In this document: one piece after another, positions 1,803 to 7,221 of the stretch
Position numbering within the stretch: the first letter of the stretch is position 1
Layout: the number at the start of each line of letters is the position of its first letter
DNA from: Gemmatimonadota bacterium
Lineage (GTDB): Bacteria; GCA-2686955
DNA length: 7,336 bases
Assembly (NCBI GenBank): GCA_002686955.1
Contig: NYZA01000091.1
Coordinates: forward strand, 1-7,336
Direction of reading: 5' to 3'
The notes under the pieces: model-generated
What the model saw: the letters and a program-made list of their open reading frames with translations, nothing else
Databases searched by the model: none
What the model was told of the DNA's origin: nothing
Position numbers and translations under genes: made by a program

Positions 1803-3182
1803 ATGTCCACCGTCTTGATCATCGATGACGATGCGGCGATCCGCCAAGCCGTCTCCACTATCCTCGGATATGACGCACACCGAATCGTCGAGGCCGAGGA
1901 CGGGATTCGAGGGCTCCAGGCCTTCGACATCGAGAAGCCGGATGTCGTGCTGCTCGATGTCAAGATGCCCGGCTTGGATGGTCTCGAGGTGCTGCGAATG
2001 ATCCGTGAGGATCGCGGCGCGTCCACTCCGGTGATCATGTTCACGGGCCACGGGGACTTCCAGACGGCCGCCGAGGCCGGGCGCTGGGGGATCTTCGATT
2101 TCATCGAGAAGCCGGGCGAAGCGGAAGTGATCCGCAACCGGATCCGCAACGCCCTTCGCCAGGTTTCGCTGGAGCGCGAGAACAGCACGCTCCGAGAGCA
2201 GTTCTCGATAGACGGCGACCTGATCGGCGATTCGCCGGCGATGAGGGCGGTCAAGCAGACGATCGAGAGAGTGGCGAAGACCCAGGCGCGCGTCCTGATC
2301 TGCGGGGAGAGCGGCACGGGAAAGGAGCTCGTGGCCCGTGCGATCCACAGAAGCTCTCCGCGCTCGGCCGCACCCCTGATCAAGGTGAACTGCGCGGCGA
2401 TTCCCGACGAGCTGATCGAATCGGAGCTCTTTGGTCACGAGAAAGGCAGCTTCACCGGCGCTCACGCCAAGAAGATCGGCAAGTTCGAGGCGGCCGATGG
2501 CGGCACGCTCTTCCTCGACGAGATCGGCGACATGCCCCTGGCTGCCCAGGCAAAGGTCCTGAGGGTTCTGCAAGAGGACGAAGTCGAGCGGGTTGGAGGA
2601 AATAAGACGATTCGGGTCGACGTGCGGGTCGTCGCCGCGACCAACAAAGCCCTCGGGGAAGAGATCTCGGAGGGACGCTTTCGGGAGGACCTCTTCTACC
2701 GGCTCAATGTTGTTCCGATCGATCTCCCTCCTCTCCGCGAACGGGGCGACGACATCGATCAGATCGCGCTGAGCATGTTGAGCGAAACCTGTCAGAAGAA
2801 CGGCCTGGCTTCGAAGGTTTTCACGCCGGACGCTTTGGCGGCGCTGCGGAAACGCTCATGGCAGGGGAATGTGCGCGAGCTCCACAATCTCGTCGAGCGG
2901 GTCGCCATTCTCAGTCCGGGCGACGAGATCGGCGCCGTTGATTTGCCCTCACAGGCCAATCGATCTCTCGCCGGCGGGCTGAGAGATCTGATAGCCGCGA
3001 CTCCGACCCTCTCGGAGTTCAAGGATCTCGCCGAGCGCGCCTATCTCGAATCGAAGCTGGCAGAGCACGGTTGGAATATCGCCCAAACCGCCAAGGCGAT
3101 CGAGGTTCAACGCTCGAACATATACAAGAAGATGGAGCGCCACGGTCTGACCAACCCGAACCGCGCGGCGAACGAGATCTAG
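1803..3182 (+). CDS. Sigma-54-dependent response regulator, NtrC/NtrX family
   Basis: A 459-residue activator with the classical three domains. The receiver (about 1-120) has the acidic pocket D8-D10, phospho-acceptor D52 in LLDVKMPG, T81 and K103. The AAA+ domain (about 138-380) has Walker A GESGTGKE (168-175), the sigma-54 contact loop GSFTGA (215-220; Ser replaces the more common Ala in GAFTGA), Walker B GGTLFLDE (233-240), arginine-finger region FREDLFYR (293-300) and the sensor II segment WQGNVREL (353-360). A Fis-type helix-turn-helix closes the protein (about 424-448, NIAQTAKAIEVQRSNIYKKM). All motifs needed for phosphorylation-controlled, ATP-driven opening of sigma-54 promoters are intact. 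It resembles NtrX-type regulators, but no histidine kinase lies in the window, so a specific symbol is not justified. It stops 2 bp before the next gene's ATG, implying one operon with the secreted protein and PorV-like gene, whose expression it may control. Confidence 0.95.
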   Translation: MSTVLIIDDDAAIRQAVSTILGYDAHRIVEAEDGIRGLQAFDIEKPDVVLLDVKMPGLDGLEVLRMIREDRGASTPVIMFTGHGDFQTAAEAGRWGIFDFIEKPGEAEVIRNRIRNALRQVSLERENSTLREQFSIDGDLIGDSPAMRAVKQTIERVAKTQARVLICGESGTGKELVARAIHRSSPRSAAPLIKVNCAAIPDELIESELFGHEKGSFTGAHAKKIGKFEAADGGTLFLDEIGDMPLAAQAKVLRVLQEDEVERVGGNKTIRVDVRVVAATNKALGEEISEGRFREDLFYRLNVVPIDLPPLRERGDDIDQIALSMLSETCQKNGLASKVFTPDALAALRKRSWQGNVRELHNLVERVAILSPGDEIGAVDLPSQANRSLAGGLRDLIAATPTLSEFKDLAERAYLESKLAEHGWNIAQTAKAIEVQRSNIYKKMERHGLTNPNRAANEI

Positions 3183-3184
3183 CG

Positions 3185-6100
3185 ATGCGCCGATTCGCGG
3201 CGGCCCTCGTGGCCATTCTCAGCCCCGGAGCGCTCGCCTCCGGTCTCGTCCCCCCGGCTCGCCCCTCGCTCCCCCCCGCCCCCGTGCTGCGGGCGCAGGC
3301 GCAGGGGCGAGTGGTCTCCCCCCGGCCGATCCGCTCCCTCTCGTCTCGATCCGTCTCACCATCAGCCACCGCGGGCTCAGGTGCTCTTTACATCGCTCTT
3401 CTCGTAGAGTTCGAATCCGACGCGAGCCCGTCCACCACAGGCGATGGCACCTTCCAGGCCGCTCCAACCTGGCCCGACTCCCTTCCCCACGATCCGCCGT
3501 TCTTTCGCCGCCAACTCGATCATCTCGAAGCCTACTGGGGGCAGGCTTCGGGAGGCCGCGCGGGATTCCATGTCGATCTTCACGGCGCCGTCCTCCGGAT
3601 GCCCGCGTCGATGGCCCGCTACGGCGCTGATGACGAGTCGACCCGGCGGGCGGCGGAGCTGCTCCGCGATTCGATCGAGGCGGCCGATCCGGGCGTCGAC
3701 TTCTCATCCTACGCGGGCGTCATCGTGATCCACGCCGGCGCCGGCCAGGAATCGGATCTTCTTCTCGACTCGAGCGACGACATCTGGTCCTCCTACATCT
3801 CCGCGGGCGATCTCGACGAGGAGCTCGGCCTGCCCGACGGAATCGCCACCGGCGACGGCGTCTTCTTCACCGAGGGCGTCATCGTCCCTGAGACCGAGAT
3901 CCAGGACCTCCCCGAGCAGGATCCCCCCCCGCCCGAGAGCAACCTGGCGATCCTCGGCGTCCTCGCCTTCGAAACCGCCCACTTCTTCGGACTGCCCGAC
4001 CTCTTCGACACGGGACCGGCGCCCCAAGACAGTTGGGGCATCGGCGCATGGGGAATCATGGGCTTGGGCGCCTGGAACGCGAACGGTTACGTGCCGCCCC
4101 ATCCCTGCGCCTGGAGCAAGCTGCGTCTCGGCTGGGTCGATCCGATCGAGCCGGCGTCGGGAGACACCTTGGAATTGACCGCAATCGAAGTCGGGGAGCG
4201 CGTCTTGCGGGTCGAATCCACCCCAACCGAGGCGTTCCTGGCCGCGTATCGACTCGGGGACGAGAACGGAAACGGTTGTTTCGACTTCACCGATCCCGAA
4301 GGCGACGGGCATTTCGATTACTACAACCCGGCATCCGGCGACAGCTACGTGGGTGCGGAGCTGGATTACTACCTCCCGACCGGCCCCGGCACCCCCTGCG
4401 AAGGGTCGAGCGACGGTGTGCTGATCTGGCATATCGACGAGCGAATAGTCGAGGAGCGGAGCCCTCTCGACATCAATCTGGTGAACGCGGACGCGGACCG
4501 AAAAGGGGTCGATCTCGAGGAGGCGGGCGGCATACAGAATCTCGATCTCTTTCCCGGTTCTTGGGGGGACTCGGCCGATTTCTGGGCTGCCGGCACGGTT
4601 TTCGGTCCCGAGACGCAGCCGAACAGCGCCACCAACTCCGAGGCCCGCACCGGTTGGTCGGTCGAAGTCGTCGGGATCGATTCAGGCTCGGCGACCGCTT
4701 CGATCCTCGCCACCATCGACCAGGCGCAGCGGGGCTGGCCGATCGAGATCGGTGAGCCGACCACGGGCGACGTCCTCGTCGCCGATTTCGACGGCGACGG
4801 GGCGTCGGAGGTGGTGGTCGTCGGTGAGAGCGGATCCGCCTATCTGATCTGGGGAGGGGGAGCGGGAAGCGCGCCGATCCCCTTCGGGCCCAGCGGGACG
4901 GGGACGGCCGGCATCGCGGCGGGCGATTTCGACGGCGACGAGGCTCCCGATCTCGTGCTCTTGACCGCAGGCGGTGAGGCCCACGCCTACAAGTTCGCCG
5001 ATGGAATCGGCGGCCGCCTTCCCGCGGTCGCGCCGATGCCCGGCTCTTGGGGCGAGGCACTGGGAGAGGCGTTTCGCCAGGGGCCCGTGATCGCGGATGT
5101 CGATGGAAATGGGCTGCCCGAAGTAGTGGTTCTGCCCCTTCCGAACGCGGAGTACCCGGATGCCCAGCTCGCGGTTTTGAGTGGTTCCGGGACACTGCTC
5201 GCCCTTCGCGCCTTGGGCGCTGCCGTCTACGCTCCGATCACCGTCACCGGCGAGGGTTCGATCGCTCTCGCCCTCTCGGACCGGGTGCTCACCTATCGCT
5301 GGAGCGGCTCCGTCCTCGAACCGAGCCCCCCCCGAACGATCACCGGCTCCGTGCAGTCCCGGCTACTGGCCATCGACATGGACACCGACGGAATGGACGA
5401 GCTTTTGGTCATGGAGGACGAGGGCGCCGCCCACCTTCTCGACATCCGTCTCTTCGATCTGCCCGGGTGGCCGGTCGCGGCGGGAGCGCGTCTGTCCGGC
5501 GGGGCGGCCGTGGCCCTTCTCGGCGATGACGGACGCCTCGACATCCTGGCCACCACCAGTGACCCCACAGAGCTCCGCCGATGGGACCGTAGCGGCGATG
5601 GGGTGTTGGATTGGCACAACCCGCGCCTCACGGAGAGCGGGAACGACGTAATTGCGGTCACCGCCGGAACTCTTGTCGCCGATCTGGATGGGGACGGCTC
5701 CGCGGAAGCAATCGTGGCTCTGCCCACCGGGACGATCCGCGGGGTTGCTCCGGGGCCCTCCGGTGTTGGCTCCGATTCTCCAGCCGGATTCCCACTACAG
5801 CAGGCGGGCACGGTGTCCTACACGCCGGCCATCGCCGATCTCGACGGTGACGGCGATCTCGAGCTGATCGTCGCCGAAGACGATGGACGGGTCATGGCCT
5901 GGGACTTTCCCGGGAGTGGAGCTGCCCACTGGCCACAGGCAGGGGGCGGCGCGGCGAGAACCGGCCGCTATCCGGGCCCCTTTCCCGATCCCGGCGAGCC
6001 GTCCGAAGCCTTGCTGGAGCTTGCTTTCGTCTACCCGAATCCCGCGCGGGGACATGCGCGCCTTCACTATCGGCTGGGGGACGCGGTCGATCGGCTAGAG

Positions 6101-6304
6101 ATCCGGGTGCTCGATGCCCGCGGCGAGCTCATCTCCCACCACACAGTGAACGACGCCGGTGCCCTCTCACCCGGAGATCACCACTGGACATGGGGTCTGG
6201 ACGGCATGGCCCGAGGTCTCTATCTGCTTCTGGTCGAGGCTCGGTCCGCCACGAGCAGCGCGCGGCGGGAGGTCCGGGCCGCCGTGATCGGGGGGGCGGG
6301 ATGA
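3185..6304 (+). CDS. Secreted M6-peptidase-like protein with FG-GAP propeller and FlgD-Ig/type IX-like C-terminus
   Basis: A 1039-residue exported protein. I start it at ATG 3185 because that gives a signal peptide (MRRFAAALVAILSPGALA, cleavage near residue 18); an upstream in-frame ATG at 3071 would overlap the regulator and bury it. A Pro/Ser-rich linker (20-65) precedes an immune-inhibitor-A (M6)-like domain (about 66-510), recognised by GLPDLFD (269-275), the Met-turn WGIMGLGAWN (289-298), CAWSKLRLGWVDP (308-320), LIWHIDE (413-419) and VDLEEAGG (442-449). The zinc motif is FETAH (262-266), so the first His of HExxH is Phe and peptidase activity is doubtful. A D-x-N-x-N-G acidic stretch (359-386) looks calcium-binding. 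Residues about 512-918 form FG-GAP/VCBS-like propeller repeats. Residues 945-1037 (FVYPNPARG, GLDGMARGLYLLLVEA) form a FlgD-Ig/type IX sorting-like domain. The gene is tightly coupled to both neighbours; ATGA joins it to the PorV-like gene. It probably acts at the cell surface or outside; its substrate is unknown. Confidence 0.9.
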   Translation: MRRFAAALVAILSPGALASGLVPPARPSLPPAPVLRAQAQGRVVSPRPIRSLSSRSVSPSATAGSGALYIALLVEFESDASPSTTGDGTFQAAPTWPDSLPHDPPFFRRQLDHLEAYWGQASGGRAGFHVDLHGAVLRMPASMARYGADDESTRRAAELLRDSIEAADPGVDFSSYAGVIVIHAGAGQESDLLLDSSDDIWSSYISAGDLDEELGLPDGIATGDGVFFTEGVIVPETEIQDLPEQDPPPPESNLAILGVLAFETAHFFGLPDLFDTGPAPQDSWGIGAWGIMGLGAWNANGYVPPHPCAWSKLRLGWVDPIEPASGDTLELTAIEVGERVLRVESTPTEAFLAAYRLGDENGNGCFDFTDPEGDGHFDYYNPASGDSYVGAELDYYLPTGPGTPCEGSSDGVLIWHIDERIVEERSPLDINLVNADADRKGVDLEEAGGIQNLDLFPGSWGDSADFWAAGTVFGPETQPNSATNSEARTGWSVEVVGIDSGSATASILATIDQAQRGWPIEIGEPTTGDVLVADFDGDGASEVVVVGESGSAYLIWGGGAGSAPIPFGPSGTGTAGIAAGDFDGDEAPDLVLLTAGGEAHAYKFADGIGGRLPAVAPMPGSWGEALGEAFRQGPVIADVDGNGLPEVVVLPLPNAEYPDAQLAVLSGSGTLLALRALGAAVYAPITVTGEGSIALALSDRVLTYRWSGSVLEPSPPRTITGSVQSRLLAIDMDTDGMDELLVMEDEGAAHLLDIRLFDLPGWPVAAGARLSGGAAVALLGDDGRLDILATTSDPTELRRWDRSGDGVLDWHNPRLTESGNDVIAVTAGTLVADLDGDGSAEAIVALPTGTIRGVAPGPSGVGSDSPAGFPLQQAGTVSYTPAIADLDGDGDLELIVAEDDGRVMAWDFPGSGAAHWPQAGGGAARTGRYPGPFPDPGEPSEALLELAFVYPNPARGHARLHYRLGDAVDRLEIRVLDARGELISHHTVNDAGALSPGDHHWTWGLDGMARGLYLLLVEARSATSSARREVRAAVIGGAG
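4718..5938 (+). repeat. FG-GAP/VCBS-like repeat array (beta-propeller) in the secreted protein
   Basis: Within the secreted protein, D-x-D-x-D-G-type calcium loops recur at residues 534 (DFDGDGASE), 581 (DFDGDEAPD), 638 (DVDGNGLPE), 731 (DMDTDGMDE), 833 (DLDGDGSAE) and 885 (DLDGDGDLE). Two further units keep the spacing but have lost the acidic loop, near 688 (TGEGSIALAL) and 779 (LGDDGRLDIL). The step is 43-57 residues, so seven or eight blades are likely. Such propellers are structural and typically mediate binding at cell surfaces. Confidence 0.8.
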
Positions 6305-7221
6305 GGGTTCGCGCAAGATATCTCCTCATCTGTCTGTTCGCCGCGCGCGGAGGCGAGAGCGCGTTCGCCGATTCGCCGGCGATGGCGGCCCTCCGGCTCC
6401 CGATCGGCACCGTCGAGGCCGGACGCGGTGGTGCCGGGGTCGCCGCGTGTGGCGACGGCGGCGATTTCCTGAGAAACCCCGCGACCGCCGTCGACGAGGC
6501 CGGCCGCAGGCTGCACGTGTCGCGCGCCGCCTGGATCTCGGAAACGAGCGTGAACCACCTCTCGATCGGCGCCCCCCTGGCCTCCGGACGCATCTCTGCG
6601 GCGATCACCTCGATCGGCTACGGGGAGTTCGAACGGCGTGGCGAAATCCCCACGCTGGCGCCCGAAGGTCGTTTCGAGCCCTCCGATGCGATCGTCGCGC
6701 TTTCGTACGCCCACGAGCTCCCCTTCGACGGGCCCGCGATCGCCCTTGGCGGCACCGTGCGCGGTATGACACAACGGATCGACACCGACCGCGCGAGTGG
6801 CATCGCCTTCGACCTCGGTCTGCGAGCCAGGCCGAAGCGGGGCGGGATCGCGCTCGGTCTTGCGCTCCGTAACGCAGGCCCCGCCTTCGGCCCCGGTGAC
6901 GATCCCCTGCCCTTGACCATCGCCACGGGGGTTTCGATCGATGCGCCGCGCCAGCTCGCGGAGACACTAGACGGATCGCTCTTCGCCGACGTGGCCAACG
7001 TCCGCGGATCCGGAACCGATCTGCACCTGGGGCTCGAAATGCGGCCCGCGCCGATTCTCCGCGCACGGATCGGCCGGGTCTTCGGCATCGAAGCCGAAGC
7101 TTGGTCCGGCGGCTTCGACTTCGGGATCGACGCACTGGACCTGCAACTGGGCTACGCCTTCACCGACATCGCTCTCGGTCTCGACGCCGCCCATCGATTC
7201 GATCTGACTCTGCGGTTCTAG
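6301..7221 (+). CDS. PorV/PorQ-family outer-membrane beta-barrel protein
   Basis: A 306-residue barrel protein whose ATG overlaps the preceding stop (ATGA); the G-rich end of the upstream gene provides a Shine-Dalgarno-like GGGGGGCGGG. The N-terminus (MRVRARYLLICLFAARG, then GESAFA) is a signal peptide, probably cut after AFA near residue 23. The family signature follows: LPIGTVEAGRGGAGVA (33-48) and a D/F-L-R-NPA segment (55-61), corresponding to the Gly-rich 'GARxxGMGGA' and 'WNPAG' motifs of PorV/PorQ/UPF0164-type proteins. The rest is alternating strand-like sequence with short turns and ends in HRFDLTLRF, an aromatic beta-signal typical of BAM-inserted barrels. In Bacteroidota, PorV receives type IX cargo and delivers it to the sortase at the outer membrane. 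Its tight pairing with a cargo bearing a sorting-like C-terminus suggests a similar job. A simpler FadL-like or structural porin role remains possible. Confidence 0.82.
   Translation: MRVRARYLLICLFAARGGESAFADSPAMAALRLPIGTVEAGRGGAGVAACGDGGDFLRNPATAVDEAGRRLHVSRAAWISETSVNHLSIGAPLASGRISAAITSIGYGEFERRGEIPTLAPEGRFEPSDAIVALSYAHELPFDGPAIALGGTVRGMTQRIDTDRASGIAFDLGLRARPKRGGIALGLALRNAGPAFGPGDDPLPLTIATGVSIDAPRQLAETLDGSLFADVANVRGSGTDLHLGLEMRPAPILRARIGRVFGIEAEAWSGGFDFGIDALDLQLGYAFTDIALGLDAAHRFDLTLRF

Follow-up and report, generated by a model that had tools for sequence, protein, structure and literature searches.

The window, the whole 7,336-nucleotide stretch of DNA analysed here, encodes an M6-like protein (M6i) in which the HExxH zinc motif of active M6 metallopeptidases is absent, with FETAH at residues 262–266. 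M6i is probably exported by the T9SS as a non-proteolytic protein, built from an M6 fold and a beta-propeller, and tethered to the cell surface by a PorQ/PorV-like barrel of its own. The new observations are (i) the probable repeated loss of the motif, (ii) a PorV/PorQ gene neighbourhood, (iii) co-occurrence with SprA and (iv) an overlapping barrel gene whose product has a PorV-like predicted fold. Literature searches found no description of the M6i family in the T9SS and, to our knowledge, the T9SS outside Bacteroidota has hardly been studied.

Domain layout of M6i

The reading frame is open from the ATG at 3185 to the TGA at 6304. A likely signal peptide (about residues 1–19, judged by eye) and a low-confidence linker up to residue 63 are followed by the pseudo-M6 domain, an FG-GAP beta-propeller and a C-terminal domain (CTD):

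3185..6304, + strand: M6i gene, encoding a 1039-aa protein
3380..4174, + strand: M6-like peptidase domain (residues 66–330), matched by TIGR03296, NF052323, Pfam M6 and InhA (4yu5)
3968..4009, + strand: degenerate zinc motif FETAHFFGLPDLFD (residues 262–275), carried by a predicted helix (257–268)
4058..4060, + strand: Met-turn methionine M292 (GIMGLG), with conservation of 90% or more in a set of 71 relatives
4715..5914, + strand: beta-propeller of FG-GAP repeats (residues 511–910; Pfam FG-GAP_3, 90.3 bits)
6020..6301, + strand: C-terminal domain (residues 946–1039), with a YPNP motif and seven predicted beta-strands

The best curated match is NF052323 of NCBIfam, the ‘T9SS-dependent M6-like inactivated metalloprotease’, of which M6i is a divergent relative (229.7 bits over residues 56–489, below the cut-off of 600). 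TIGR03296 (NCBIfam) scores 108.7 bits for a cut-off of 110.8, and the M6 profile of Pfam, PF05547, is matched at 28 bits (cut-off 22). The full-length AlphaFold2 model has a mean pLDDT of 85.7 and a pTM of 0.83. A full-length fold search yielded propellers throughout, the best covering residues 513–908 (Z 33.0, rmsd 2.4, 316 aligned; VIA-align), and these structural matches speak for the propeller part rather than for the M6 fold.

The AlphaFold2 model has seven strands over the final 90 residues, the number described for type A CTDs (PMC12618676), and P951 and P953 are invariant across the M6i family. On the predicted structure the C-terminal domain appears to be like the T9SS type A CTDs, though its profile scores lie below cut-off (Pfam Por_Secre_tail 17.8 bits, cut-off 27; TIGR04183 11.5 bits, cut-off 23).

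The degenerate motif and its closest relative

A family profile places the motif stretch opposite the zinc motif of immune inhibitor A (PDB 4yu5). F262 takes the place of zinc ligand 1; E263, H266 and D272 are kept. The original prediction had read FETAH at 3968–3982, followed by FFGLPDLFD, and the codons TTC GAA ACC GCC CAC, with phenylalanine at residue 262, are as it described. It was also right that two base changes separate TTC from a histidine codon, and that AWSKLRLGW, the Met-turn and LIWHIDE are intact.

Its argument against a sequencing error is borne out by the only other genome of the phylum in the analysis (G001), where the orthologue has TTCGAAACAGGCCAC, that is, FETGH with the same TTC codon. 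This rules out both an error and an isolated mutation as the source of FETAH: the phenylalanine is common to the closest relative, in which E263, H266 and D272 are likewise kept. The two proteins are 54% identical over their full length, 67% in the M6 domain and 46% in the propeller. The pair has dN of ∼0.25 and dS of ∼2, and dN/dS is only qualitative because dS is near saturation. With the M6 domain the best-conserved part of the pair and purifying selection acting on it, the proposal that selection keeps the M6 fold holds.

Both analysed genomes of the phylum also contain a canonical M6 protein with an intact HEFGH (L181, G000 C97; L182, G001 C720), and no PorV-family neighbour was found near either gene.

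Probable repeated loss of the motif

Inactivated M6 proteins are a known kind, since NF052323 has already been named, and its inactivated motif is present as FETAH in the window and FETGH in G001. An Ignavibacteria member passes the NF052323 cut-off (815.6 bits), which neither the G001 relative nor any tested member of the window's wider clade reaches. M6i relatives were gathered from whole genomes and genome contigs; they come from Eisenbacteria, Cloacimonadota, Krumholzibacteriota, Latescibacterota, KSB1, Ignavibacteria, Fermentibacter and others. HExxH is lost in one way or another in 93 of the 110 non-redundant members in the motif count. Seventeen members have HExxH, 24 have HxxxH without the Glu, 18 have one His and 51 have neither.

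The 24 members with both His but no Glu are mostly HQxxH proteins of Cloacimonadota. At L092, L094, L103 and other Cloacimonadota loci, Gln replaces the catalytic Glu and both His ligands are kept; judged by their motif, these proteins possibly have a zinc-binding but non-catalytic site.

Trees built without the motif columns join the window pair to an HMxGR group as sisters (support 97/87). The losses of the sisters are complementary, the window pair having kept the Glu and second His and the HMxGR group the first His, so that the simplest history gives HExxH to the ancestor they share and a separate loss of the motif to each lineage. A separate FExxL/S group occurs in Krumholzibacteriota and Latescibacterota, and some members of the window's wider clade keep HExxH. 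On a careful tree, free parsimony requires at least four changes between HExxH and other states, and six losses if loss is irreversible, counts to be read with some deep branches weakly supported. Because different catalytic residues were lost in different lineages and HExxH survives in only 17 of the 110 members, inactivation probably happened several times, which would make M6i a clear case of repeated pseudo-enzyme evolution. The 17 relatives with HExxH indicate that some members may still be proteases.

The PorV/PorQ neighbourhood

Directly downstream of M6i lies a second gene, whose ATG overlaps the M6i stop codon (ATGA, 6301–6304):

6301..7221, + strand: putative PorV/PorQ-family outer-membrane barrel, 306 aa

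Its profile scores are below cut-off (NF033709 74.2 bits, cut-off 90; PorQ 60.3 bits, cut-off 220). In the PDB, the predicted model (pLDDT 87.2) most closely matches PorV from the T9SS translocon (8gl6 and 6h3i, Z 33; for 8gl6_F, Z 33.4, rmsd 4.1, 281 aligned), and FadL-type barrels reach Z 31.4.

Among M6i loci with enough flank, a PorV/PorQ-family gene adjoins M6i on the same strand, within 400 bp, in 68 of 69. The sole exception, L102, has a broken M6i frame that is nevertheless followed by the barrel gene. Of 18 other M6-family loci, 16 with HExxH and one (L195) cut by a contig end, a single one has such a neighbour (1/18; Fisher p 6e-16, a value that overstates certainty because the loci share ancestry). 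The G001 contig ends just after M6i, and the comparison of partner genes thus stops short of the closest relative.

Two arrangements recur. In the first, PorV lies upstream of M6i, often with the PorU sortase before it; PorU, scored with a catalytic-region profile, completes a PorU-PorV-M6i order in 26 loci. In the second, to which the window belongs, the barrel is downstream of M6i and, in the loci scanned, has a higher score to PorQ than to PorV. A TolB-like propeller protein of ∼1030 aa follows M6i in many PorV-M6i loci (L066, L074 and others).

The link to the T9SS

Of 51 genomes that match M6i strongly (E up to 1e-30), 50 have SprA, compared with 43 of 239 others (counted by hand; p 5e-29, again overstated by shared ancestry). 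Besides SprA, the window's own genome has several PorV-family genes and encodes a PorU-like protein. No PorZ was detected in this genome, but many other genomes with M6i do carry PorZ-like genes; M6i is thus not simply a substitute for PorZ, and a general replacement was rejected. PorV and PorQ of Porphyromonas gingivalis anchor PorU and PorZ, which retain their CTDs (PMC5562754). The link between M6i and the T9SS is strong; the exact role of M6i would be that of an attachment-type component or of a dedicated cargo.

Proposed role and alternatives

M6i probably enters the periplasm by Sec. Its C-terminal domain would then take it across the outer membrane via the SprA/Sov translocon, and the gene order suggests that the PorQ/PorV-like barrel encoded directly downstream tethers it on the cell surface. 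With F262 for zinc ligand 1, the M6 fold would no longer cut proteins, and together with the beta-propeller it may serve as a binding or scaffold surface. The original prediction had proposed a secreted pseudo-peptidase with a binding or structural role, the reading favoured on sequence grounds by selection on the fold, the shared Phe and the 93 relatives without HExxH. The T9SS context of M6i and the inactivated-M6 family already named in NCBIfam go beyond that proposal. The catalytic site has decayed by different routes while the place beside PorV/PorQ and PorU has been kept, which points to a conserved non-catalytic role at a secretion or attachment step. More tentatively, and at somewhat less than even odds, M6i may be an uncharacterised T9SS component found in many phyla, both candidate phyla and those of the FCB group. 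It would be a pseudo-M6 protein at the surface that has kept its pairing with a PorV/PorQ-family barrel through about six independent losses of proteolytic activity.

It is also conceivable, though rather unlikely, that M6i is a T9SS cargo, an adhesin-like surface pseudo-peptidase with a dedicated shuttle gene, outside the secretion and attachment machinery. In Flavobacterium, a dedicated PorP/SprF shuttle gene often comes after a type B cargo gene (PMC12618676), and the window, with M6i and then a PorQ-like barrel, has a similar layout. However, the mostly single strong M6i copy per genome across many phyla, and the PorU-PorV-M6i order of 26 loci, would suit a component of the system better than a variable cargo.

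A metalloenzyme with an unusual site seems improbable. The metal would sit on H266 and D272, with another residue or water standing in for H262 and with E263 as base. Both genomes keep E263, H266 and D272, and 17 relatives do retain HExxH. Sister and cousin lineages, however, have lost the Glu, the second His or all three residues in the same gene context, so activity is not what the M6i family conserves. A decaying pseudogene or assembly artefact can be dismissed: both assemblies are incomplete (84.5% and 83% complete), but the frame is open at full length in both genomes with the same TTC codon, dN is well below dS and the M6 domain is the most conserved part.

Comparison with known systems

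NF052323 (T9SSA_dep_M6i) shares with the window protein its length, layout, degenerate zinc motif and T9SS association. The window protein scores far below the family cut-off, and in its clade M6i is followed by a PorQ-like gene rather than preceded by PorU-PorV. Immune inhibitor A (PDB 4yu5; PF05547) shares the domain profile match, the Met-turn and the HExxHxxGxxD register, whereas M6i has Phe for the first zinc-ligand His and a fused propeller and putative CTD. The PorU:PorV and PorZ:PorQ pairs of the Porphyromonas gingivalis attachment complex each join a CTD protein to a PorV/PorQ-family barrel, a layout that M6i, with its CTD-like end, and the downstream barrel would share. Where those pairs have the PorU sortase or the two PorZ propellers, M6i has an M6 fold, and its partnership with the barrel is a putative one, suggested by gene order.

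Other genes in the window

The window also contains:

2–649, − strand: protein weakly matching DUF3078 (23.5 bits, cut-off 25) and truncated by the contig end
791–1135: C4-type zinc ribbon protein, adjoining the PTS EIIA type 2 gene
1163–1615, − strand: PTS EIIA type 2 protein (Pfam, 106.5 bits)
1803..3182, + strand: sigma-54 NtrC-type response regulator (AtoC/NtrC-type, NCBIfam, 441 bits, under cut-off), ending 2 bp before the M6i ATG

A close relative of the NtrC-type regulator lies directly upstream of M6i in G001, and at L084 and L085 the distance to such a relative is ∼1.3 kb, again upstream; this recurrence hints at dedicated regulation of M6i.
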